DNA of 64,000 bases from assembly GCF_001742305.1 (NCBI RefSeq), contig NZ_MJAT01000012.1, positions 248,001-312,000 on the forward strand, written 5' to 3'. A model generated the notes under the pieces. The model was not told the origin of the DNA. It saw nothing but the letters and a program-made list of their open reading frames with translations, and did no database searches. Both the position numbers and the translations under genes were made by a program. This document shows, piece after piece, positions 14,133-26,408 of this stretch; the first letter of the stretch is position 1; each line of letters begins with the position of its first letter. The stretch comes from Desulfuribacillus stibiiarsenatis. Lineage in GTDB: Bacteria > Bacillota > Bacilli > Desulfuribacillales > Desulfuribacillaceae.

Positions 14133-15450
14133 TCACAAGCTTATCCATGAAAAGGCAATGCATGCTATAACAAGAGTAGATCCAATTCGTCTAAATGGGA
14201 AGGTAACACAAGTAATAGGTTTAACCATTGAAGCGAAAGGACCGAATGCTTCTTTAGGAGAACTTTGTATTATTGAATCAAACAATAGTGTGCAACGAAT
14301 TTATGCAGAAGTAGTAGGATTTAAAGATGATAAGGTACTTCTAATGCCGTTGGGAGAATTAGGTGCTATTGGACCTGGTTGTCAAGTAATTGCAACTGGT
14401 AAACCATTCGAAGTACAAGTTGGTTATGAACTTTTAGGTAGAGTTCTAGATGGCCTAGGGAACCCTATAGATGGTCTACAGTTCTATAACAATCTGGATC
14501 GGTACAGTATCAACAATACGCCTCCAAATCCGCTCCATCGACCAAAGATTCGAGAGGCTATGTCTGTCGGTGTACGAGTCCTTGACGGCTTAAATACAAT
14601 CGGTAAAGGACAAAGAATTGGACTTTTTGCAGGTAGTGGTGTAGGTAAAAGCACATTACTTGGGATGATTGCTAGAAATACTGAGGCAGATATTAATGTC
14701 ATCGCTCTTATTGGTGAGCGTGGTAGAGAAGTAAGGGAATTTATTGACAAGGATTTAGGCCCAGAAGGACTAAAACGTTCCGTATTAGTTGTCGCAACAT
14801 CAGACCAACCTGCTTTAGTTCGCATGAAGGGCGCAATGTTAGCAACTGCGATTGCTGAATATTTTAGAGATCAAGGTCTTCAAGTTATGCTCATGATGGA
14901 CTCTTTAACTAGATATGCAATGGCTGGACGAGAAGTAGGGCTCGCGATTGGCGAACCACCAGCAGCAAGGGGATATACGCCTTCGGTATTTGCTACATTA
15001 CCAAGATTGCTGGAGCGAGCTGGGACGTCGGCTAAAGGAAGTATTACTGCGTTTTATACGGTTTTGGTAGATGCTGATGACATGAATGAACCAATAGCAG
15101 ATGCAGTTCGAGGAATTCTTGATGGGCATATCGTACTATCGAGAAAGCTCGCTCATAAAAATCATTTTCCTGCTATAGATGTGTTACAAAGTGTAAGTCG
15201 TGTTATGAATGATATTGCTACTCCAGAACATTTACAAGCATCCAGTAGACTAAAAGAGCTATTGGCAATTTATAGAGAGTCTGAAGATTTAATCTCCATT
15301 GGTGCTTACAAAAAAGGCAGTAATCGCAAGTTAGACACTGCTATTTACTATAAAGACCGTATTGATGATTATTGTAAGCAACAAATTCATGAAGTGACTA
15401 ATTTTGAACAGTCTGTATCCAATCTCACTGAGTTATTGGAGAAGGTATAA
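14119..15450 (+). CDS. fliI: Flagellum-specific ATPase FliI
   Basis: FliI is the F1-beta-like hexameric ATPase that prepares substrates for flagellar export. Walker A is AGSGVGKSTLLG near residue 175, and MLMMDSLTRYAMAGREVG carries Walker B. GEPPAARGYTPSVFATLPRL is the family signature. I prefer TTG 14119, six bases after AGGAAGTG (14105-14112); the open frame reaches to GTG 14110. The start lies within the fliH end, and the stop overlaps the fliJ ATG by one base, so fliH-fliI-fliJ are tightly coupled. Confidence 0.96.
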   Translation: MLKLNHKLIHEKAMHAITRVDPIRLNGKVTQVIGLTIEAKGPNASLGELCIIESNNSVQRIYAEVVGFKDDKVLLMPLGELGAIGPGCQVIATGKPFEVQVGYELLGRVLDGLGNPIDGLQFYNNLDRYSINNTPPNPLHRPKIREAMSVGVRVLDGLNTIGKGQRIGLFAGSGVGKSTLLGMIARNTEADINVIALIGERGREVREFIDKDLGPEGLKRSVLVVATSDQPALVRMKGAMLATAIAEYFRDQGLQVMLMMDSLTRYAMAGREVGLAIGEPPAARGYTPSVFATLPRLLERAGTSAKGSITAFYTVLVDADDMNEPIADAVRGILDGHIVLSRKLAHKNHFPAIDVLQSVSRVMNDIATPEHLQASSRLKELLAIYRESEDLISIGAYKKGSNRKLDTAIYYKDRIDDYCKQQIHEVTNFEQSVSNLTELLEKV

Positions 15451-15893
15451 TGAAACCATTTCAATATCAATATCAGAAAATATTAGATCTTAAATCTAAA
15501 GAGGTTGATTATGCAAAGGCAGAATACGCGAAATCATTAAAAGAGCTAGAAAATGCTGAACTGCTTTTGCAGAAATATAAAGCTGAAGAAGAAACGATTC
15601 AAAGAGAGCTGGCGAGTAACACAAGTTCTTCAACCCATAAAATATGTAATTACTATCAATACTTTATGAAGCTTAAGAACATGAAAGAAAATCAAACCTT
15701 ACAAGTGCAAGAAAAAGAAAAACTAATGAGTACAAAACAGAAGGAATTAACGTTAGCGTTTAAAGAAGAAAAAAAATGGATGAAGTTAAAAGAGCTACAA
15801 GAATCGGAGTATAACGCAGAACAAACGAAAAATGAGCAAAATACTTTAGATGAAATCAGTATTCAAAGATTTCTTATGAAAAAAAAATTATAA
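15450..15893 (+). CDS. fliJ: Flagellar export protein FliJ
   Basis: FliJ is a small antiparallel coiled-coil protein that sits in the FliI ring and touches FlhA, like the gamma subunit of F1. This 147-residue protein starts FQYQYQKILDLKSKEVDYAK and is almost wholly charged helix, with many Lys and Glu residues. The TAATG overlap with fliI supports the start. Sequence conservation in the family is low; the call rests on place, length and helix pattern. Confidence 0.9.
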   Translation: MKPFQYQYQKILDLKSKEVDYAKAEYAKSLKELENAELLLQKYKAEEETIQRELASNTSSSTHKICNYYQYFMKLKNMKENQTLQVQEKEKLMSTKQKELTLAFKEEKKWMKLKELQESEYNAEQTKNEQNTLDEISIQRFLMKKKL

Positions 15894-15956
15894 CTGCCGA
15901 TATAATATAGAAGAATGTATATAAAACGAAACATAGCAATAATAGGTGGTGAGTAA

Positions 15957-16829
15957 ATGGCGGAAAACACAGAAGTTAGAAGTTACAGTAAACTAGAATG
16001 GCTATTTTATATCATCATTCTGCCTATGCTATTTACTGCTGTATTATCAGGTGTTTTTATGTCGTTTTTAGGATACGATGTCGGTGGTACAATTAGAGAT
16101 ACATTTTCTTCTGTTCCAGTAATTCGAGATATATTACCAGAAGTTCCTGAAACAGAACTACCATTAGATGAAAAAGTTGTGAAATTAGAGACTGAAATCA
16201 AAGACTTAGAAGATAGTATAAGTCAAAAAGACGTATTGATTGAAGAGTTAAATGCTTCTATTGAACAAAGAAATTTAACAATTACAGATTTAGAGCAAAA
16301 AATGCAAGAGATTAACAATCTTCTTGATGATAAAATGGCAGATCGTAAGTCATGGGAAGATAAGATTGCGGAACTTTCAAAAATGTATTCTAGTATGCCT
16401 CCAAATCGTGCCGCGCCGATTATTTCGGCTTTGCCCGAAATGGAAGCTATTCAAATATTAAATGCTATGACAAGTGGTGATCGTGCGAAAGTCATGGAGA
16501 AAATGACACCTGCTAAAGCTGCTTCAATCACATCACTTTTGGCAACTAGACCTGACTCAGATTATGAGGAAGTAGCTGTATTATTAGCGAAAATTGACCA
16601 ATTGAATTTACAGCTAGAAGATAAACAGAAGCGTGAAGATAGAGCAAAAGAATTAGCTAGATTATACTCTACAATTTCTGAAGATAGATCGGCAGAGATA
16701 CTATCATTAATGACTAACGGAGAAGCTGTTGATATATTAAAGCAGATGACGCTGGCGAAAAGAAGTGCTTTGTTAGAGAAGATGCCTTCTAATCGTGCGG
16801 CACAGCTTACTCAACTACTGCTTAATTAA
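15957..16829 (+). CDS. ylxF: MotE/YlxF-type flagellar protein with two MgtE-N-like repeats
   Basis: It occupies the place of B. subtilis ylxF, between fliJ and fliK, and resembles MotE, a stator-related chaperone of MotC in other bacteria. Residues about 16-38 form one transmembrane helix (FYIIILPMLFTAVLSGVF). A coiled coil spans about 55-130. Two related MgtE N-terminal-like helical repeats follow, near 143-197 (MYSSMPPNRAAPIISALP) and 236-290 (LYSTISEDRSAEILSLM). The protein is longer than YlxF because the repeat is doubled. It is not a magnesium transporter, since the channel part is absent. Its function in Gram-positive bacteria is not settled. Confidence 0.8.
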   Translation: MAENTEVRSYSKLEWLFYIIILPMLFTAVLSGVFMSFLGYDVGGTIRDTFSSVPVIRDILPEVPETELPLDEKVVKLETEIKDLEDSISQKDVLIEELNASIEQRNLTITDLEQKMQEINNLLDDKMADRKSWEDKIAELSKMYSSMPPNRAAPIISALPEMEAIQILNAMTSGDRAKVMEKMTPAKAASITSLLATRPDSDYEEVAVLLAKIDQLNLQLEDKQKREDRAKELARLYSTISEDRSAEILSLMTNGEAVDILKQMTLAKRSALLEKMPSNRAAQLTQLLLN

Positions 16830-16898
16830 AAAATCAGTTTAGATATGAAATTCGAAAGAATTCATATACATGATTACACTTGAAGGGAGGTGAAAACG

Positions 16899-18539
16899 AT
16901 GAATACAGGTCTAAATGGTTTGATTTTTACAGAAGTATCATTACAAGGTGCGAATCATGGTGGTAGTTCTAAAAATAGTAAGGCTCTAACTAGTGATTTT
17001 GCTCAGCTTCTTCAATTAGCAAATGATGCAATCAGTGGCAAGCAAGGGATTCAATATGGAGAAGACATGGAGATTTCTGTTGACTTCAGTATGTTAGCGT
17101 CGCTTATTTCAACTAAATCATCTTCAAAAGAGAGCAATGTCCAAGGAATTGATTTTGCAAAACAACTTTTATTAGCAGATCAACTATTGAAGTCACCATT
17201 ACTATACGATTCACACGAAATGAATGATTTATCTATGGATCAGGGATTAGCCGCATTTTCTAGAGAAGAACTTAAGGAGATTTTAGCTGCCATTCAACAA
17301 TTACTTACCAATGACAGCGAAGAAACCTTAAAAGCTGAGCTTTCAAAAGAAGAATTTGATTTAGCAACTAAAAACTTTGGAGATATGCATTCGCTTTTGT
17401 TAATTGTTGAAACGGTTATCTCACACTTTGTAGAAAGACAAAGCAATAGCCAAACACCACAACAACAAGAAGGAATAAGCCAAAGCAAATTGCAACAGTT
17501 ACTATTTGCTAACCCAAACCACTTTTTCAAGAATCATCCAATTGTTCAAACAAATAGTAATTCTCCAATGGCTGATATGAAGTTCGCTGAACGCATTGTA
17601 GCAATGGAGTCAAATGCGACTAGCACTAATGAAAATATCATAAAAGTGTTAAAACAGTTGATTCATCAATCTGAAACGAACCGTTTCAAACTAGAGAGCC
17701 AAGGAAAAGTAGTAACTCAAGCTATAGCGCCATTGCTGACAACTCTTACTCTTGTGCAACCGAAACTAGTTCAAGTAGAAACAACGAATCTAGTGAATCA
17801 AGACGTGAAACTTGATGTTGAGGGAGTCAAGCTGACTAACAACTTATCTGGATCTCAACAACAATGGAATTCGTCAGAGGAAAGTCAGTCAAAGCAATCG
17901 CTCAATGTGCTATCTTCATTAGATAAGTCAAGTGATAATATGGGATTAAATGGCTTCTCAAGTATCTTAGGTGACAGTGCAAAGGCAACAACAGTTTCTA
18001 ATACAACGCAAATCAATTATACATCCCAGAGCGAGTTTGAAAATCAATTACAGGAACTAATGTTGAACCAAGCGAAACTAGTAAAAAAGCCTAACGGTAT
18101 ACAAAGTATGGTTGTGTCATTACAGCCAGCTCATTTAGGGGCATTAAAGATTTCTATCACATCTCATCAAGGGCACATGACAGCAAGTATTATTACTACT
18201 ACTAACAGCGCTCGAGAAATGATTGAAGGATCAATCAATAACTTACGAATTGCTTTGGTAAATCAAGGTATTACGATTGATAAAATTGATGTCCAGCACC
18301 AGACTTCATCATCAAATTCAAACGTGACGCAGAGTGCTAGTGCTCAATCGCAACTTTTCCAACAACGTAAAGAACAAGAGACTCAGTATGAGCAACAAAA
18401 CAAAAAAAACAAGCAATCTGAGCGCTTTAGTTTTGATGAATTAGAAGAGCTAGCTTTAGATTTTATCAACGAAAACCAAATTGACAAGAAATTTATTCAC
18501 AACAATGATTACTCAACAAGTATCAATATAACAGCTTAG
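16899..18539 (+). CDS. fliK: Flagellar hook-length control protein FliK
   Basis: FliK is the secreted molecular ruler that ends hook growth by switching FlhB. The N-terminal and central parts are variable and rich in Ser, Asn and Gln. The conserved C-terminal domain near residues 390-465 contains VVSLQPAHLGALKISI and LRIALVNQGITIDKIDV, the Flg_hook fold. The tail is Gln/Lys-rich. I start it at ATG 16899 after GGGAGGTGA; the open frame from GTG 16890 overlaps that site. It sits directly before flgD, as expected. Confidence 0.92.
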   Translation: MNTGLNGLIFTEVSLQGANHGGSSKNSKALTSDFAQLLQLANDAISGKQGIQYGEDMEISVDFSMLASLISTKSSSKESNVQGIDFAKQLLLADQLLKSPLLYDSHEMNDLSMDQGLAAFSREELKEILAAIQQLLTNDSEETLKAELSKEEFDLATKNFGDMHSLLLIVETVISHFVERQSNSQTPQQQEGISQSKLQQLLFANPNHFFKNHPIVQTNSNSPMADMKFAERIVAMESNATSTNENIIKVLKQLIHQSETNRFKLESQGKVVTQAIAPLLTTLTLVQPKLVQVETTNLVNQDVKLDVEGVKLTNNLSGSQQQWNSSEESQSKQSLNVLSSLDKSSDNMGLNGFSSILGDSAKATTVSNTTQINYTSQSEFENQLQELMLNQAKLVKKPNGIQSMVVSLQPAHLGALKISITSHQGHMTASIITTTNSAREMIEGSINNLRIALVNQGITIDKIDVQHQTSSSNSNVTQSASAQSQLFQQRKEQETQYEQQNKKNKQSERFSFDELEELALDFINENQIDKKFIHNNDYSTSINITA

Positions 18540-18550
18540 GAGTGGATTGA

Positions 18551-19099
18551 ATGACGACTGTTAATTCGCCAATCTACACAGATCGATCCTCGATTCAGAC
18601 GAAAGAACGGGAAATCAAGAAAGAGCTTGGAAAAGATGACTTCTTGAAAATTCTTGTAACACAATTGCAATACCAGGATCCAATGCAACCTTTAGAGGAT
18701 AGAGAGTTTATCGCTCAGATGGCGCAGTTTAGCGCATTGGAACAGATGACGAAAATCGCAGATTTGCAAGCTACGAATAATAGCATGCAACAATTTCAAG
18801 CTTTTCAGCTAGTTGGTAAAAATATAGAGGGTATATCTAACAACTCGGTGGTTAAAGGTGTTGTTACTGAAGTTAGAATGAAGGATGGGTTAGCTGTATT
18901 AAAAGTGAATGGTGTTGATATATCTATGAAAGATATTCTGAGTGTATTTAATACTACACAACAAGAACAGCAAATAAACCAACCAACGCAACCGACACAA
19001 CCATCTGAGCCAACTCCAACTGATAATGATGGAACTACCCCTGAAGAAGATACTGATTATCCTCAAGAAGAGGAAATTTCAGACTCTACAGAACAATAA
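18551..19099 (+). CDS. flgD: Flagellar hook assembly protein FlgD
   Basis: FlgD is the scaffold cap for hook polymerisation. The N-terminal motif LGKDDFLKILVTQLQYQDPM followed by FIAQMAQFSALEQM is diagnostic. Like the short Bacillus form it lacks the large C-terminal Ig/tudor domains of Proteobacteria. From about residue 136 a low-complexity tail rich in Pro, Thr, Glu and Asp (QPTQPTQPSEPTPT) extends it to 182 residues, which is unusual. It starts 11 bases after fliK. Confidence 0.94.
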   Translation: MTTVNSPIYTDRSSIQTKEREIKKELGKDDFLKILVTQLQYQDPMQPLEDREFIAQMAQFSALEQMTKIADLQATNNSMQQFQAFQLVGKNIEGISNNSVVKGVVTEVRMKDGLAVLKVNGVDISMKDILSVFNTTQQEQQINQPTQPTQPSEPTPTDNDGTTPEEDTDYPQEEEISDSTEQ

Positions 19100-19125
19100 T
19101 TATGTGAATTAGGGTGATTGAGTTT

Positions 19126-19518
19126 ATGGAAAAAATATGGTTTCATCAACAACCTATTCAGCCCGTTAAGAAAACTGACTTAGCACCTGCAACAAAAATC
19201 CAAAATCAACAGAACCAGACACAATTTAGAGATGTATTCCAAAAAACATTAAATCATGTGCAGCAACCTATAAAGTTTAGTGCCCATGCGAGTAAACGAA
19301 TTCATGAGCGAGGAATTACAATTTCTGATGATGATATGTCAAGACTTGAAGAAGCAGTAACAAAAGCTGCCAATAAGGGTTCAAGAGATGCTTTGATTTT
19401 AATGAATGATGTTGCTTATGTAGTGAGTGTAAAAAACAAGACAGTAGTAACGGCAGTTGATGATCAAACAAAGAAGGACAATGTATTTACAAATATTGAT
19501 AGTGCGATTTTTTTATAG
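19126..19518 (+). CDS. Flagellar operon protein, TIGR02530 family
   Basis: This small protein of about 130 residues lies between flgD and flgE, the usual place of the TIGR02530 'flagellar operon protein' family in Firmicutes. The conserved part is the second half: FSAHASKRIHERGI, followed by SRLEEAVTKAANKGSRDALI and VAYVVSVKNKTVVTAVD. Its function is not known. ATG 19126 fits an AGGGTG site (19111-19116); GTG 19114 is also in frame. There is no signal peptide or membrane helix. Confidence 0.8.
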   Translation: MEKIWFHQQPIQPVKKTDLAPATKIQNQQNQTQFRDVFQKTLNHVQQPIKFSAHASKRIHERGITISDDDMSRLEEAVTKAANKGSRDALILMNDVAYVVSVKNKTVVTAVDDQTKKDNVFTNIDSAIFL

Positions 19519-19569
19519 AGGCTGGACCTTACGGGGGCCTCACGACCCGCTGAATGAATGATGCGGGAT
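19518..19569 (+). ncRNA. Two GC-rich hairpins in the flgE 5' region
   Basis: The 71-base gap before flgE holds GAGGC (19518-19522) pairing with GCCTC (19537-19541), and CCCGC (19546-19550) pairing with GCGGG (19563-19567), the latter extended by GA/TC around a bulged A. The stretch is GC-rich against AT-rich surroundings and ends just before AGAGGAGG, the flgE ribosome binding site. There is no U tract, so it is not a terminator. It may protect the downstream mRNA or affect flgE translation. Confidence 0.5.
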
Positions 19570-19589
19570 CACAGAGGAGGATATAACAG

Positions 19590-20399
19590 ATGTTACGTTC
19601 ACTTTATTCAGGAATATCCGGTATGAGAGGTTTTCAAACAAAACTTGATGTTATCGGTAACAACATTGCCAACGTAAATACTGTTGGTTTTAAAGCAAGT
19701 CGCGTTATGTTCCAAGACGTATTAAGCCAGAGGCTTTCTGGTGCTACTGCTCCAGAAGAGGGAGAGCGTGGAGGAAGAAATCCACAACAAGTAGGACTAG
19801 GTAGTGGAATTTCAAGTATTGATACACTTCATTATGAAGGAAGTCCGCAAACTACGGGTGTAGGAACTGACTTGTATATTAACGGCGATGGATATTTTGC
19901 TGTACAAGATGGTGCAGATGGTGAAATTTTATTGACAAGAGCTGGCAACTTTACTATAGACTCAGTTGGTTTTTTAGTTACATCGGATGGTATGTTTGTC
20001 CTAGATAGCGGAGGAGCACAAATTCAATTAGGTGCTGAAGTACAATCTTTCAGTATTGCTGCTAACGGTAACATTATTACTGTTGATGGTGATGGTGGAA
20101 TAGAAGAACTAGGGCCTATCGGTCTAGTAACAGTAGCTAACCCTATGGGTATGGAAAAGGTTGGCGGCACAAGATTTAGAGTTACTGGCAACGCAAACCC
20201 AGATGGTGCTATTGAATTTAAAGAGCCAGGAGTTGATGGTGCAGGACTTCTAATCGCTGGTAGATTGGAAATGTCGAACGTTGAGTTAACAAGTGAGTTT
20301 ACTGAGATGATTATTGCACAAAGAGGATTCCAGGCGAACTCAAGAATCATCACGACTTCGGATGAGATTTTACAAGAAGTAGTTAACTTGAAGCGATAA
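19590..20399 (+). CDS. flgE: Flagellar hook protein FlgE
   Basis: FlgE polymerises into the hook. The N-terminus (MLRSLYSGISGMRGFQTKLD, then VIGNNIANVNTVGFKASRV) is the hook/rod signature, and the C-terminus (IIAQRGFQANSRIITTSDEI) is the matching axial helix. At 269 residues it is a minimal hook protein without the large variable outer domains, like the B. subtilis protein that was first named FlgG and later shown to be the hook. Its place after flgD supports FlgE rather than the distal-rod protein FlgG. It is flanked on both sides by RNA hairpins. Confidence 0.9.
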   Translation: MLRSLYSGISGMRGFQTKLDVIGNNIANVNTVGFKASRVMFQDVLSQRLSGATAPEEGERGGRNPQQVGLGSGISSIDTLHYEGSPQTTGVGTDLYINGDGYFAVQDGADGEILLTRAGNFTIDSVGFLVTSDGMFVLDSGGAQIQLGAEVQSFSIAANGNIITVDGDGGIEELGPIGLVTVANPMGMEKVGGTRFRVTGNANPDGAIEFKEPGVDGAGLLIAGRLEMSNVELTSEFTEMIIAQRGFQANSRIITTSDEILQEVVNLKR

Positions 20400-20405
20400 T
20401 AATTT

Positions 20406-20449
20406 AACAGCTAGGTAGCGGCATTATAATGCCGCTGCCTACTGCTGTT
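20406..20449 (+). repeat. Long inverted repeat/hairpin between flgE and swrD
   Basis: A 13-bp stem (20412-20424 with 20429-20441, one G-T wobble, 4-base loop) is extended by AACAGC (20406-20411) pairing with GCTGTT (20444-20449) around a 2-base bulge. No T run follows (TTGGTATTTG), so it is not a standard terminator. It fills the space between the flgE stop and the swrD ribosome binding site. Confidence 0.8.
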
Positions 20450-20480
20450 GGTATTTGAAGTTCACGAATGGAGAATGTAT

Positions 20481-20708
20481 ATGATTCAAGTGTCAAGATT
20501 AAATGGTAGCGTGTTTTTTATTAACCCAATTCATATTGAAAACTTTGAAGAAACTCCAGACACAGTTATCACTTTGACAAATGGAAAAAAACTAATTGTT
20601 CGTGAAAACGCGGAGAGCCTGATTGAGCAGTTGCGAGCTTTTTATCACTCTGTTGGTGGTCTTAAAGTTGTAATACAGTATCAATCACAAGAGCATCCTA
20701 ATGAATAG
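20481..20708 (+). CDS. swrD: FlbD-family flagellar protein (SwrD)
   Basis: This is a 75-residue protein of the Firmicute FlbD family. It starts MIQVSRLNGSVFFINPIHIE and continues ETPDTVITLTNGKKLIVRE, the conserved core. In B. subtilis the homologue SwrD (YlzI) lies at the same place and raises flagellar motor power. I start it at ATG 20481, seven bases after GGAG (20470-20473); the open frame upstream to 20448 runs into the inverted repeat and lacks a site. There is no membrane segment. Confidence 0.88.
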   Translation: MIQVSRLNGSVFFINPIHIENFEETPDTVITLTNGKKLIVRENAESLIEQLRAFYHSVGGLKVVIQYQSQEHPNE

Positions 20709-20726
20709 TAGCTGGAGGTACTAGCC

Positions 20727-21173
20727 GTGTTCCAAAACAAATTGCTCAATATTTCATTGATTATCTTAATTGCAATTTCATTGTTTGCCATAGTGGGTAT
20801 TTTAGCTTATATGTTAATATATGATGGTTCTCAACCAGAAGAGGAAGAGCAACCAAAACCATATACTGGTGCGGAAGTGCAGGAATTAACATTGACAACC
20901 GAGAAACTAACAACTAATTTGGCGGACGGAAGATTAATAATATTAAGTTTGTCATTTATGGCAGAGAATAAGAAATCTAAGGATGAGTTGCAACAAAGAA
21001 TGGTGCAAGTAAAAGATATGTTAATTACTTCCCTTCATTCACAAACTCGAAAAGACTTTGAGACCACTGAGGGACTAGAGGCTTATAAACTATTAATTCT
21101 TCAAAGGACTAATGAATTATTAGATAAAGGGACTATTGTAGATGTTTTTTATATTGATAAAGTCATACAATAG
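20727..21173 (+). CDS. fliL: Flagellar basal-body-associated protein FliL
   Basis: FliL is a single-pass membrane protein beside the stator that supports torque. Residues about 8-32 are the transmembrane helix (ISLIILIAISLFAIVGILAY). The external domain contains the family pattern (TTNLADGRLIILSLSFMAENKK, a strand and helix) and ends DVFYIDKVIQ, the usual C-terminal strand. GTG 20727 follows GGAGGT. It is next to fliM, as in other flagellar operons. Confidence 0.9.
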   Translation: MFQNKLLNISLIILIAISLFAIVGILAYMLIYDGSQPEEEEQPKPYTGAEVQELTLTTEKLTTNLADGRLIILSLSFMAENKKSKDELQQRMVQVKDMLITSLHSQTRKDFETTEGLEAYKLLILQRTNELLDKGTIVDVFYIDKVIQ

Positions 21174-21240
21174 ATTTCATAACTTAACACAACAATAATC
21201 ATAATCGAAATATAGATTGATGAGAAAAGTGGGTGGTCTT

Positions 21241-22236
21241 GTGAGTGAGGTACTCTCTCAAAGTGAAATTGACGCCCTTCTTACCGCATTATCCTCTGGT
21301 GAATTAGATGCAGAGGAAATACGTAAGGATGAAGTGCAAAAAAAGGTTAAAACTTATGACTTTAAAAGAGCGTATAGATTTTCAAAGGATCAGACAAGAA
21401 GCTTAACGCGTATTCACGAGAATTTCGCAAGGTTACTTACGAGTTATTTTTCTGCTCAGTTTAGAACTTTTGTGCAAATCACTGTAGCTTCCGTTGACCA
21501 ATTACCATATGACGAGTTTATTCGCTCAATACCTAAAATGACGATTTTAAATGTCTTCGAAGCTGTTCCATTAGAAGGACGACTGGTGATGGAAGTAAAT
21601 CCAAATATTGCGTATGCAATGCTAGATCGTTTAATGGGCGGCCAAGGTATTAGTGCAGAGAAGTTTAGAAGTCTTACGGAAATTGAAACAATTGTCATGG
21701 AGAGAATCTTTAATAAAGCATTAGAGAATTTCGCAGAGGCTTGGAGAACAATTATAGACTTAGATCCGGAACTAGATATACTGGAAACAAATCCACAATT
21801 TATGCAAATAGTTTCTCCAAATGAAACGGTAGCGGTTATATCATTTCAAACAAAAATTGGCGAAGCCACCGGGATGATTAACCTTTGTCTTCCGCATGTT
21901 GTATTAGAGCCGATCATGCCGAAACTAACGGCACATCATTGGTTTGCATCTCAAAAGAAATCTAGATCAGATAAAGAAGTCTTTCATATTCAGGAACGCG
22001 TTAAGAAAGCATCAGTAACGGTAAAGGCAGAATTAGGTGCTTCTATCATCTCTATAGGTGAGTTCCTCAGTTTGAATATTGGAGATGTCATTCAACTTGA
22101 CAATATGTTTGAAGATGATATCAATGTTCGTGTTGGGAATTTAGTAAAGTTCAAGGCGCAGCCAGGGTTGTCTAAGAAACGTGTTGCTTTACAGATTACT
22201 GAAGTTCTAGAGGAAGGTGTTGAAGAAAATGGGTAG
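21241..22236 (+). CDS. fliM: Flagellar motor switch protein FliM
   Basis: FliM is the C-ring protein that binds phospho-CheY. The N-terminal peptide VLSQSEIDALLTALSSG is the CheY-binding EIDALL motif. The middle CheC-like domain lacks the phosphatase residues, and the C-terminal SpoA/FliN-like domain contains LNIGDVIQLDNMFEDDINVRV. I start it at GTG 21241 behind GGGTGG; the open frame goes back to 21217. The end overlaps fliY by 8 bases, suggesting coupling. Confidence 0.95.
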   Translation: MSEVLSQSEIDALLTALSSGELDAEEIRKDEVQKKVKTYDFKRAYRFSKDQTRSLTRIHENFARLLTSYFSAQFRTFVQITVASVDQLPYDEFIRSIPKMTILNVFEAVPLEGRLVMEVNPNIAYAMLDRLMGGQGISAEKFRSLTEIETIVMERIFNKALENFAEAWRTIIDLDPELDILETNPQFMQIVSPNETVAVISFQTKIGEATGMINLCLPHVVLEPIMPKLTAHHWFASQKKSRSDKEVFHIQERVKKASVTVKAELGASIISIGEFLSLNIGDVIQLDNMFEDDINVRVGNLVKFKAQPGLSKKRVALQITEVLEEGVEENG

Positions 22237-23554
22237 AGATATGCTTTCTCAAGAAGAAATAGATGCATTATTAAAAGCGGGATCCTCTGATGACGATGAG
22301 CAAGCATCATATACTAGTTCAACTGAGAGTTCAGCAACTTCAGCTGCATCAAACGTTCAAGTTGGGAATTTCTTGAATGAATTTGAACGAGATGCCTTGG
22401 GGGAAATCGGAAATATATCTTTTGGGAGTGCGGCAACAGCGCTATCTACATTATTAGGTCAAAAGGTAGATATCACTACACCAACAGTTTCAGCTATAGC
22501 AAGAGAAGAAGTTGTCAATGAATTTCCAATGCCACATGTAGCTGTGAATGTGGGTTATACTAGCGGCTTTGAAGGGAACAACTTGCTTGTCATTAAAGTG
22601 AGTGATGCGAGAATTATTGCTGACCTCATGATGGGTGGCGACGGTCATCCGGATCAAAGTCAAGAATTATCTGAATTACACACGAGTGCCGTAGCTGAAG
22701 CAATGAATCAAATGATGGGATCGGCGGCTACAGCAATGTCAACGATTTTTAACGATTTCGTAAACATTTCCCCGCCAGAGACCAAAGTATTAGATTTTGA
22801 GAAATCTGAAGGTCTTCACATGCTGCCTGATGAAGATATTTTCATTCGCATTTCGTTTCGACTAATTGTAGGGGACTTAATTGATTCCTACTTAATGCAA
22901 TTAGTTCCGATTCATTTTGCTAAAGATATGGTAGCAAGATTAACATCTGGGATGGATAGTGAGCCAGCTCCTGCACCGAAAAAGGAAGAGAAGCCAGTTG
23001 CTGCAGCGACTCCAGTTCCTCCACAGCCTCAAGCTCCAACTTACCAAGAGCAACCAATGGCTGCACAACAACCAGCTCAAGGATATCCAGCACAAGAGAT
23101 GCCACCTCAAAATATGGGGTATCCACCGAATTATGGGTATCAACAACCGCCAGGATATCCTCAAAATGGATATCCACAGCAACCGTATTATAATTATCCA
23201 CCTCCACAACCTCAGACTTTTGGAGGGATACAACCGAATCTTCAACCTGCGCAATTTACAAGCTTTGACCCACAAAAAGGTAAATTTGCTGGTGAAGGAA
23301 ACCTTAATTTGTTACTAGACGTTCCGTTGCAAATTACAGTAGAATTAGGAAGAACAAAGCGACAAATTAAAGATATTTTAGAGTTGAGTCAAGGTTCAAT
23401 CATAGAACTTGATCGTTTAGCTGGTGAACCGGTAGATGTTCTAGTTAACAATAAACTTATTGCAAAAGGTGAAGTAGTTGTTATAGATGAAAACTTTGGG
23501 GTTCGTATCACGGATATCATAAGTCAGATTGAACGTGTGCAGAAACTTCAATAG
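22229..23554 (+). CDS. fliY: Flagellar switch/CheY-P phosphatase FliY
   Basis: FliY is the Gram-positive fusion of a CheC-type CheY-P phosphatase and a FliN domain in the C ring. The N-terminus MLSQEEIDALLKAG resembles the FliM peptide. Two active-site motifs of the D/S-x3-E-x2-N-x22-P kind are intact (beginning DALGEIGN and SAVAEAMN). The C-terminal FliN domain (about residues 355-441) carries LLLDVPLQITVELGRTKRQI. Between them is a roughly 95-residue linker rich in Pro, Gln, Tyr and Gly (YPQNGYPQQPYYNYPPPQP), longer and more repetitive than expected. Start ATG 22229 fits AGGAAGGTG. Confidence 0.95.
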   Translation: MGRDMLSQEEIDALLKAGSSDDDEQASYTSSTESSATSAASNVQVGNFLNEFERDALGEIGNISFGSAATALSTLLGQKVDITTPTVSAIAREEVVNEFPMPHVAVNVGYTSGFEGNNLLVIKVSDARIIADLMMGGDGHPDQSQELSELHTSAVAEAMNQMMGSAATAMSTIFNDFVNISPPETKVLDFEKSEGLHMLPDEDIFIRISFRLIVGDLIDSYLMQLVPIHFAKDMVARLTSGMDSEPAPAPKKEEKPVAAATPVPPQPQAPTYQEQPMAAQQPAQGYPAQEMPPQNMGYPPNYGYQQPPGYPQNGYPQQPYYNYPPPQPQTFGGIQPNLQPAQFTSFDPQKGKFAGEGNLNLLLDVPLQITVELGRTKRQIKDILELSQGSIIELDRLAGEPVDVLVNNKLIAKGEVVVIDENFGVRITDIISQIERVQKLQ

Positions 23555-23579
23555 TTTACTTGAAGGAGGAGGGGATGAA

Positions 23580-23942
23580 ATGACAGCAAGAATAATGATT
23601 GTTGACGATGCAGCCTTTATGAGGATGATGATTAAAGATATACTCTCGAAAAACGGCTTTGAGGTTGTCGCTGAGGCTGCTGATGGTGCACAAGCAGTCG
23701 AAAAATATAAAGAACTAAAACCAGATTTGGTTACAATGGACATTACTATGCCTGAGATGGATGGAATTGCTGCCTTAAAAGAAATTAAAAAAGTAGACCC
23801 TTCTGCCAAAGTTTTAATGTGTTCGGCAATGGGACAACAGGCAATGGTTATAGATGCGATTCAAGCTGGTGCAAAGGATTTTATTGTCAAGCCATTTCAA
23901 GCTGATCGAGTTTTAGAAGCAATTAATAAATCATTAGGATAA
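23580..23942 (+). CDS. cheY: Chemotaxis response regulator CheY
   Basis: CheY is the diffusible single-domain regulator that carries the signal from CheA to the switch. It shows the acidic pair IMIVDDAAFMR, the phosphoacceptor Asp54 in VTMDITMPEMDG, the switch region LMCSAMGQQ and Lys in FIVKPF. Length 120 is standard. ATG 23580 follows GGAGGAGGGG; the longer open frame to 23529 is not needed. No cheA is nearby, so the kinase must be coded elsewhere. Confidence 0.95.
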   Translation: MTARIMIVDDAAFMRMMIKDILSKNGFEVVAEAADGAQAVEKYKELKPDLVTMDITMPEMDGIAALKEIKKVDPSAKVLMCSAMGQQAMVIDAIQAGAKDFIVKPFQADRVLEAINKSLG

Positions 23943-23961
23943 ATTAGAAAGTGGTGAAGCG

Positions 23962-24585
23962 GTGAACAACTATGGTAAACTCATCATAGCAATCCTTTTT
24001 ACTACTATGTGTATTTATATATATATGCCAATCTCAGCAGTAGCGTCCGATAATGTATATGATAGTTTACTAGGCGATAAAAATTCTAATGAAACAAAAA
24101 CACTTGATCAAATACCTGGGTCGACTGAAGAGACTTCAAGTAATACGAGTAATGAGGTTAGTTCGACTTGGATGTTTCTCACTGCATTTTTCAAATTAGT
24201 ATTAGCCACAACTGCGATAGTTGCTATCATATACTTTGGAGCTAGAATTATATCGGAAAAAAGAAAACGTTCACAAAGCTCACAAAACACTCAAACACTT
24301 GGAGTACACGCACTTGGGCAAAACAAGACACTTCAAATTATTAGAGTGGGGAAAAAAATTTATGTCATTGGTGTAGGGGATAATATTAATTTAATTAAAG
24401 AGCTATCGGAAGAAGAGGGAACAGAGTTTTTTGCAGACATGGAAGAAAGCTATGACACTGATGCTTCAAACAATAGCATGCCCAGTCAATTTGAGAATAT
24501 CTTCAAGAAAAAATTGACCGAGCTAAAAGATCGGAAGAATTCCCTACAGCATGATCAACGTGAAAATGAGAGGGAGTATCTATGA
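23962..24585 (+). CDS. fliO: Flagellar export protein FliO (FliZ of Bacillus)
   Basis: FliO helps FliP assemble in the export gate. The 207-residue protein has an N-terminal signal-like segment (IIAILFTTMCIYIYM), an Asn/Ser/Thr-rich external stretch, and a transmembrane helix at about 75-95 (FFKLVLATTAIVAIIYFG). The cytoplasmic domain contains ALGQNKTLQIIRVGKKIYVIGV, the FliO signature. GTG 23962 has a weak AAGCGGTG context. It overlaps fliP by four bases (ATGA). Confidence 0.88.
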   Translation: MNNYGKLIIAILFTTMCIYIYMPISAVASDNVYDSLLGDKNSNETKTLDQIPGSTEETSSNTSNEVSSTWMFLTAFFKLVLATTAIVAIIYFGARIISEKRKRSQSSQNTQTLGVHALGQNKTLQIIRVGKKIYVIGVGDNINLIKELSEEEGTEFFADMEESYDTDASNNSMPSQFENIFKKKLTELKDRKNSLQHDQRENEREYL

Positions 24586-25334
24586 GAAAACTACTGCTCA
24601 TTACTTTACTAATTTCTATTACTCTCTTTCCCAATGTGAGTCATGCTACGGAGATACCAGGAATACCTGGTCTTAATATTGGATTAGAAACAACTGATAA
24701 TCCTGCGGATGTATCGGTAACTTTGCAATTAATTTTTCTTTTAACGATTCTATCAATTGCACCAGCTATTCTAATTCTCATGACTTGTTTTACTAGAGTC
24801 GTTGTTGTGCTTTCCTTTACTAGGAATGCACTAGCGACTAACCAGATGCCACCGAATCAAGTGATTATTGGACTGGCATTATTTATTACTTTTTTTATAA
24901 TGACACCAGTTTTTGCTGAGGTGAACGATACGGCATTACAACCTTATCTAGCTGGAGAGCTTGAACAAGTTGAAGCATTAGAATTAGCAGCCAAACCTTT
25001 TAAAATATTTATGGCAAAACATACAAGACAAAAGGACTTATCGTTATTTCTAAACTATGCCCAAATTCCACCGCCGAATACAATTGATGATATACCGATG
25101 ACAGCGCTTGTTCCAGCGTTTGCTATAAGTGAACTAAAGACAGCCTTTCAAATAGGTTTCATGATTTTTATTCCTTTTTTAATATTGGACATGATTGTAG
25201 CGAGTGTGCTTATGTCTATGGGTATGATGATGTTACCACCTGTAATGATATCTCTTCCATTTAAAATTCTATTATTTATTCTTGTTGACGGCTGGTATTT
25301 AATTGTCCGGTCGCTTCTCATTAGCTTTAATTGA
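24582..25334 (+). CDS. fliP: Flagellar export gate protein FliP
   Basis: FliP forms the central pore of the type III export gate. It has a cleavable signal peptide ending about SHA, then the conserved LTILSIAPAILILMTCFTRV, ALATNQMPPNQVIIGLALF and FQIGFMIFIPFLILDMIVAS. Four membrane helices are visible. Length 250 is normal. Its start overlaps fliO, and fliQ follows after 17 bases. Confidence 0.97.
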   Translation: MRKLLLITLLISITLFPNVSHATEIPGIPGLNIGLETTDNPADVSVTLQLIFLLTILSIAPAILILMTCFTRVVVVLSFTRNALATNQMPPNQVIIGLALFITFFIMTPVFAEVNDTALQPYLAGELEQVEALELAAKPFKIFMAKHTRQKDLSLFLNYAQIPPPNTIDDIPMTALVPAFAISELKTAFQIGFMIFIPFLILDMIVASVLMSMGMMMLPPVMISLPFKILLFILVDGWYLIVRSLLISFN

Positions 25335-25351
25335 AAAGGAGGAGATACGTT

Positions 25352-25621
25352 ATGTCGCCAGACTTTGTAATTAAATTAGGACAGGATGCAGTAGTAGTTG
25401 TCTTAAAAGTTGCAGGCCCTATGCTAGCAGTCGGTCTAGGTATTGGTTTAATAATAAGTATTTTTCAGGCAACTACTCAAATTCAGGAACAGACATTAAC
25501 ATTTGTTCCAAAAATTGCTGGCATTCTGATTTCATTAATCGTATTTGCACCTTGGATGATCAACGTCTTATTGGATTTTGCTCTTGAAATATTTGAAAAT
25601 TTGCATCTATTTATAGGATAG
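25352..25621 (+). CDS. fliQ: Flagellar export gate protein FliQ
   Basis: FliQ (89 residues) is a two-helix gate subunit. It begins MSPDFVIKLGQDAVVVVLKV, and the family motif QATTQIQEQTLTFVPKI lies between its two membrane helices. I start at ATG 25352, after AAAGGAGGAG; the frame is open from 25331 but that would run across the ribosome binding site. Confidence 0.96.
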   Translation: MSPDFVIKLGQDAVVVVLKVAGPMLAVGLGIGLIISIFQATTQIQEQTLTFVPKIAGILISLIVFAPWMINVLLDFALEIFENLHLFIG

Positions 25622-25631
25622 GAATGATCTT

Positions 25632-26408
25632 ATGGAGATGCTAAACCAGCTTCCTGTATTCATGTTAGTATTTACGAGAATTTTATCGATGTTTATGATA
25701 GTACCTTTTTTTAGTGGAAAAGGAATTCCTGCAACTTTTAGAGTAGGTACTGCATTTTTCCTCGCCATCATAGCATATTCTACAATTTCTACAGAACAAG
25801 AATTGATACCTTTAGATGGCGCATATATTTTTTTTGTTTTTAAAGAAGTAATCATAGGTTTGATTATGGGATTTTTAGCTGCGATGTTCATGGCAGCATT
25901 ACAAATTGCAGGACAGTTTATTGATGTTCAGATGGGCTTTGGTATAGCGAATGTAGTCGACCCTCAGACAGGTACACAAGTTCCGATTATGGGTTTCTTT
26001 AAATATTATCTTGCAATCCTAATATTTTTATCATTAAATATTCATCATGTGATAATTCAAGCATATATTGATAGCTTTCTAAAAATCCCGATTGGCCATT
26101 TATATTTAGATGGTCGATATGCTGAATATATTGTTAGCGCTTTTAATGTAATGTTTGTCAGTGCGATTAAGATAGCTGCACCTATTGTGTTTATACTATT
26201 ATTAACTACGATTTCATTAGGGATTACGGCTCGGACAGTTCCCCAAATGAACGTTTTCGTAGTAGGTATGCCATTAAAAATTGCGTTAGGTCTTCTTCTT
26301 ATGTATATAACACTTCCAACATTTCTTTTTATGCTAGACACCTTGTTTATGGATATGGTTGAGAGTATTTATATAATGATTCATATAATTGCTAATAGTA
26401 ATCCGTGA
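25632..26408 (+). CDS. fliR: Flagellar export gate protein FliR
   Basis: FliR completes the FliPQR gate and contacts FlhB. This 258-residue protein has about six membrane helices. Typical pieces are FTRILSMFMIVPFFSGKGIP, QIAGQFIDVQMGFGIANVVDP and RTVPQMNVFVVGMPLKIALG. The ribosome binding site before ATG 25632 is weak (ATAGGAATGA), which may mean lower translation, in line with a single copy per gate. Confidence 0.95.
   Translation: MEMLNQLPVFMLVFTRILSMFMIVPFFSGKGIPATFRVGTAFFLAIIAYSTISTEQELIPLDGAYIFFVFKEVIIGLIMGFLAAMFMAALQIAGQFIDVQMGFGIANVVDPQTGTQVPIMGFFKYYLAILIFLSLNIHHVIIQAYIDSFLKIPIGHLYLDGRYAEYIVSAFNVMFVSAIKIAAPIVFILLLTTISLGITARTVPQMNVFVVGMPLKIALGLLLMYITLPTFLFMLDTLFMDMVESIYIMIHIIANSNP

Follow-up and report, generated by a model that had tools for sequence, protein, structure and literature searches.

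The analysed window, a stretch of 64,000 nucleotides of Desulfuribacillus stibiiarsenatis (contig NZ_MJAT01000012.1, positions 248,001 to 312,000), contains a flagellar operon on the forward strand. The part of interest encodes, in this order, flgD, an uncharacterised gene of the TIGR02530 (flg_new) family, an flgE-type gene and flbD. The gap upstream of the flgE-type gene (19519-19589) folds into two hairpins, P1 and P2, while the gap downstream of it (20400-20480) folds into one long hairpin (Table 1). The NCBIfam model NF009278 names the flgE-type gene FlgG, with a score over its cut-off. Its identity as the hook gene rests on its place after flgD, which is the gene order in Bacillus, and the automatic names of hook genes in Bacilli may mislead.

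Table 1. Features around the flgE-type gene; positions are those of the window.
Position	Strand	Feature	Basis
18551-19099		flgD	gene call
19114-19518	+	TIGR02530 (flg_new) gene; disordered N-terminus with FxxxPhi motif (F38-F42) followed by a predicted domain resembling the RelE/ParE fold; proposed RNA-binding partner	NCBIfam 122.2 bits, cut-off 83.2; co-occurrence; predicted structures and fold comparison; motif
19517-19572	+	conserved two-hairpin leader RNA of flgE, starting at the TIGR02530 stop codon	covariance model, 35.5 bits, E 3.3e-7; only match in the genome at E<=0.01; covariation
19518-19541	+	hairpin P1: 6-bp stem, 3x1 internal loop GGA/G, CC-GG cap stem	fold and consensus
19546-19567	+	hairpin P2: 5-bp stem, 12-nt loop TGAATGAATGAT (19551-19562) with three GA at 4-nt spacing	fold; all six GA letters in 99 of 99 sequences
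19574-19580	+	Shine-Dalgarno-like GAGGAGG of flgE, directly after the RNA	sequence
19590-20399	+	flgE-type hook gene (269 aa)	NCBIfam FlgE/FlgG family; position after flgD
20406-20449	+	19-bp hairpin in the flgE-flbD gap, near-perfect 16-nt palindrome at its core, no U-tract; candidate 3' stabiliser or processing border	folding energy; positional conservation
20481-20708	+	flbD (swrD-type) gene	PF06289, E 7e-25

The hairpins which the preliminary description had placed on both sides of flgE are real, and sequence and folds agree with the positions given there. The two gaps differ, however, in how far their folding exceeds chance. The 3' hairpin has a folding energy of -29.5 kcal/mol (z -6.6), none of 200 shuffled sequences were as good, and it is the strongest of 1250 60-nt stretches between 9 and 34 kb. 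For the 5' pair z is -2.7 for the exact 52 nt (2 of 200 shuffles as good), -1.5 for 91 nt (14 of 200) and -0.4 for the whole gap, so by energy alone it would not stand out, and it is conservation and covariation that establish it. The absence of a U-tract was confirmed: a terminator scan of 15000-26000 found only one site, at 24656, and neither hairpin qualifies as an intrinsic terminator. The claim that other gaps of the operon lack such structures also holds, since of the 19 gaps of 10 nt or more folded between 8.4 and 33 kb only the 3' flgE gap is below z -2.4. Two others, 16830-16889 and 25622-25631, display mildly stable folds (z -2.1 and -2.3).

Alignment of flgE upstream regions from relatives showed the same two hairpins. 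P1 has GGCUGGACC on one side and GG-R-RGCC on the other, giving the 3x1 internal loop, while the 12-nt loop of P2 reads YGAnnGAnnGAn. A covariance model built from 7 relatives, not including the window, finds the window (Table 1). In an alignment of 41 sequences 94.2% of the cells are paired (73.0% in shuffles, 38.1-47.5% when slid), and 15 of 16 pairs have changes on both sides. With 99 sequences the values are 94.5% (38.5-46.1% when slid) and again 15 of 16. These alignments are fitted to the model, and 58 of the 99 rows were found with a pattern that fixes parts of P1 and the GA letters; the 41 rows do not depend on that pattern. Neither does a model-free alignment of 16 sequences, in which P2 alone gives 96.9% paired cells and 6 of 6 doubly changed pairs, although its rows were picked with a looser regular expression asking for the GA letters but not for P2 pairing. 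Among the 99, the six GA letters of the P2 loop and GG, C and G of P1 never vary; the GA letters are invariant also in the 41. The third letter of the GGA is less strict (A in 88 of 99).

No Rfam family matches the element at the gathering score, neither in the whole window nor in 18 loci carrying the motif, and 17 motif loci gave no match even at E<=1. A few weak hits (snR13, mir-3926, S15 leader, snoR79) are far below their cut-offs and were taken as chance. In the literature searched, which did not include the 2017 survey of 224 RNAs, no paper was found that describes an RNA element before flgE or a function for TIGR02530, as far as titles and the beginnings of abstracts show, and a search for TIGR02530 itself gave none. 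In the main texts, without supplements, of four RNA-survey papers, flg was found only as motif names in one (PMC2864571).

Of 398 Bacilli genomes, 161 have a match to the RNA at E<=0.01, one each. In the 110 genomes where the positions of RNA and flgE could be compared, all matches lie 14-101 nt (median 26) upstream of flgE on the same strand; 40 RNA places without a listed flgE place were left out, and seven flgE places were taken from the earlier collection of relatives. In all 136 places comparable with TIGR02530 (genome G250 was dropped, its RNA place not being listed) the RNA starts -1 to 37 nt after the end of the TIGR02530 match. A pattern scan of 84,980 named genomes returned at least 120 stretches, and 119 of 120 lie next to TIGR02530 and/or an flgE-family gene. 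They include Bacilli, Clostridium, Sporomusa, Pectinatus, Halanaerobium, Frackibacter and Syntrophomonas, as well as MAGs labelled Bdellovibrionales, Bacteriovoracaceae, Oligoflexia, Deltaproteobacteria, Geobacter, Poribacteria and Hydrogenedentota. The one hit without flagellar neighbours is from Sulfolobales.

TIGR02530 occurs in 170 of the same 398 genomes: 161 have both gene and RNA, nine have TIGR02530 only, none has the RNA only, and 228 have neither. Among the 213 genomes with a good flgE match the corresponding numbers are 140, 5, 0 and 68. A sensitive search recovered the RNA next to TIGR02530 in seven of the nine, leaving two genomes (G146 and G178) with TIGR02530 and no detectable RNA, while nothing reached E 0.01 in 31 of the 68 flgE genomes without TIGR02530. 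Hits in genomes G047 and G058 (E 0.013 and 0.035) lie in or beside unrelated genes. Both states occur within several families of the genome tables, for example f3 (genomes G003/G026), f7 (G047/G226), f27 (G034/G148), f29 (G036/G228), f33 (G082/G254), f37 (G281/G263, same genus), f41 (G150/G171) and f48 (G279/G332). Joint loss or gain thus looks repeated, although this is read from the tables and not from a tree. In 38 genomes reached through named loci, mostly outside Bacilli, RNA and TIGR02530 are both present and adjacent in 38 of 38; these genomes were, however, chosen because they hold the RNA. In one MAG (contig C101, 27887-28141, of genome G430) the TIGR02530 match has one TGA inside, and an RNA match lies next to it. 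None of 14 well-known control genomes, B. subtilis being named among the controls, has TIGR02530, and this is probably why the system was missed.

The 38 genomes contain 15 further RNA matches away from TIGR02530. Eleven of these, in eight genomes, lie 19-65 nt before a start codon: five precede flgE-type hook genes (loci L219, L221, L224, L225 and L226) and six precede the distal rod gene flgG (L220, L223 and L228-L231). NCBIfam confirms FlgG over cut-off for the six, while the hook genes match FlgE models below their cut-offs and the FlgEFG subfamily above; ten of the eleven were compared, as L225 repeats L224. These two loci are identical cassettes of RNA plus second flgE, located in opposite orientation on one contig of a Selenomonadales genome. 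So the RNA follows hook and rod genes, not only the TIGR02530 gene. Four doubtful extra matches were not counted as targets: L227 (31 bits), those in genomes G431 and G424 (22 and 21 bits), and L222 of Sporomusa ovata (contig C3, 24608-24659; 34 bits). The last is a degraded-looking copy between unrelated genes, before an ammonia-lyase-like gene, where P1 and the GA loop are kept but the 3' arm of P2 is lost.

The predicted structure of the TIGR02530 protein (pLDDT 87.9 for the whole, 91.6 for the domain) has helix-helix-strand-strand-strand after a short first strand, a topology that fits the beta-alpha-alpha-beta-beta-beta arrangement of the RelE/ParE (BECR) superfamily. Of the solved chains compared, the top 23 rows for the domain are all RelE/ParE/HigB/YafQ-type toxins, but with Z 5.1-6.2, above pantothenate kinase at 4.8 and under the Z of 8 below which one fold match should not be trusted alone. 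Foldseek gave nothing at E<=0.001, and a PDB sequence search with the family profile gave only chance hits. DUF4258, listed among 13 BECR-fold families with unknown target (PMC11980606), matches 51 of 100 members at E<=0.1 (best 4.7e-4); these matches lie below the curated cut-off, and the protein of the window scores 12.8 bits against a cut-off of 25. Invariant residues of the domain include S56, H58, R62 and T113, with R66, K88, G89 and N108 nearly so.

The N-terminal linker is variable (about 2.5-3.7 bits entropy in its other columns) except for F38 and a hydrophobic residue at +4, each found in 100 of 100 sequences. This short FxxxPhi motif is like the docking signal of early flagellar export substrates, the GRM (PMC8983047), and the FlgE of the window has F41QDVL45. 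The motif positions rest on guessed start codons: 95 of 100 are at residues 28-47 (four of these at 28-29), one is at 13 and four are at 51-63. A second conserved stretch is found at residues 5-17 (I/V-G-Q-x-Y, then Q-P-L/I-x-P).

The 3' hairpin is conserved by position rather than by sequence, which differs between species. In 92 loci with TIGR02530 and a gap of 35 nt or more, the flgE-flbD gap has a median z of -2.58, compared to -0.08 in flgE coding sequence and 0.11 after flbD. Of 112 such loci, 76 have a stem of nine or more pairs with at least five G-C, and only two of these are followed by a T-rich tail. The 12 loci without TIGR02530 are too few for a firm comparison.

The preliminary description proposed that the structures could mark processing sites and shield an flgE segment from nucleases, thereby setting stoichiometry, and this interpretation is only partly supported. 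Absence of covariation in relatives had been named as a refuting result, and this refuting condition clearly fails, as 15 of 16 pairs have compensatory changes. The recurrence of the 3' hairpin without a U-run is what would be expected of a 3'-end stabiliser or processing border. The 5' structure, on the other hand, is not a generic shield. Its invariant loop letters, its occurrence as one family across phyla, its near-perfect co-occurrence with TIGR02530 and its extra copies before flgG and second flgE genes fit a specific protein-binding leader better than passive protection.

We therefore favour, with moderate confidence, the view that the 5' element is a conserved leader RNA of hook and, in some lineages, distal-rod mRNAs, and that TIGR02530 is its trans-acting RNA-binding partner. 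The analysis itself demonstrates the structure and conservation of the RNA, its place before the start codon, the genes downstream of it and the near-perfect co-occurrence with TIGR02530, whereas binding by the protein, control of translation or stability of the hook and rod mRNAs, and the direction of that control are inferred from sequence and predicted structure. In this view the RelE/ParE-like domain, with invariant His and Arg in its first helix, would read the GGA internal loop and the GA-repeat loop, and the protein, bound next to the ribosome-binding site (typically 14-48 nt before the start codon), would set how much hook or rod protein is made. The predicted accessibility of the ribosome-binding site is mixed (median unpaired 0.43, n=93), so no common occlusion mechanism is visible. 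As TIGR02530 and flgE usually are neighbours, part of the co-occurrence could be shared inheritance of one gene cassette; the copies in trans argue against this, but they are few. It is inferred on weaker grounds that the FxxxPhi motif docks the protein on the export gate component FlhB like a rod/hook substrate, so that export status would control the cytoplasmic level of the regulator, with repression while export is blocked and relief when rod and hook are being exported. The 3' hairpin is a separate structure that probably protects the 3' end of the flgE segment.

The main rival is a refined version of the processing and stability proposal, where TIGR02530 is a site-specific ribonuclease, as RelE-like folds often are, that cuts in or near the leader; with the 3' hairpin at the other end this would excise a stable flgE (or flgG) mRNA segment and set stoichiometry. 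The fold comparison, the invariant His and Arg and near-invariant Lys, and the presence of hairpins at both ends of flgE speak for it, but a nuclease role is here postulated without mapped catalytic residues or RNA data, and the 3' hairpin is, unlike the RNA, not universal. We consider this unlikely; the processing and stability idea of the preliminary description remains possible, mainly for the 3' hairpin. It is more doubtful that the RNA is recognised by something else, such as a small molecule, a ribosomal protein or CsrA, with TIGR02530 merely belonging to the same flagellar subtype. Small two-hairpin leaders can be riboswitches, and P1 has a GGA, the motif bound by CsrA (PMC4894983), which controls flagellin in B. 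subtilis (PMC6529632). However, CsrA does not track the RNA: it is found in 27 of 30 RNA genomes and in 26 of 31 RNA-less flgE genomes, and three RNA genomes lack it. The variable third letter of the GGA and the lack of an Rfam match also speak against this reading, no consistent occlusion as for a ribosome-site switch was predicted, and a free ligand would not explain why there are no genomes with the RNA alone.

That the RNA is an inhibitor or chaperone of a RelE-like protein, as in type III toxin-antitoxin pairs, would agree with its place directly 3' of the RelE-like gene on the same strand in 136 of 136 comparable places, but seems very unlikely given the 11 copies before flgE or flgG genes and away from TIGR02530. 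Chance hairpins or DNA-level palindromes without RNA function, suggested only by the unremarkable 5' folding energy, are refuted for the 5' element by covariation, invariant loops, orientation and cross-phylum conservation. A more far-reaching and at present speculative possibility, less likely than not, is that TIGR02530 is a domesticated RelE-like protein linking mRNA to the type III export gate, one end reading the P1-P2 leader of flgE and flgG messages and the FxxxPhi end docking on FlhB. The protein might then either be exported, thereby relieving translation of hook and rod proteins only while the gate accepts them, or deliver those messages to the gate for local synthesis. Both would be RNA-level coupling of structural protein synthesis to flagellar export.

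How cells match the synthesis of rod and hook subunits to the state of the export machine has largely remained unexplained outside the flagellin and FlgM checkpoints. The present results give a single RNA, a single proposed partner protein and a defined set of target genes across several phyla, and would assign a function to TIGR02530. Structured leaders with a dedicated RNA-binding protein are already known; what we regard as new is the RNA family, together with its proposed partner and hook/rod targets.

One of the closest known systems is the CsrA-FliW-hag control of flagellin homeostasis in B. subtilis, where an RNA-binding protein acts on the leader of a flagellar structural gene with feedback tied to export (PMC6529632). 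The target, the RNA and the protein are different here. The RelE/ParE superfamily resembles TIGR02530 in predicted topology and in the top, though low-scoring, structural matches, and DUF4258 in particular in a weak sequence similarity below the curated cut-off; TIGR02530 differs in being fixed in a flagellar operon and in carrying a conserved N-terminal linear motif. The flg-Rhizobiales (RF01736) and Termite-flg (RF01729) motifs are structured RNAs whose names point to flagellar genes (PMC2864571); both have Rfam numbers, and no Rfam family matches the window or the relatives. FlgM, an exported anti-sigma factor, shares the proposed logic of a regulator whose level is set by export, but TIGR02530 would act on mRNA and in the rod/hook phase.
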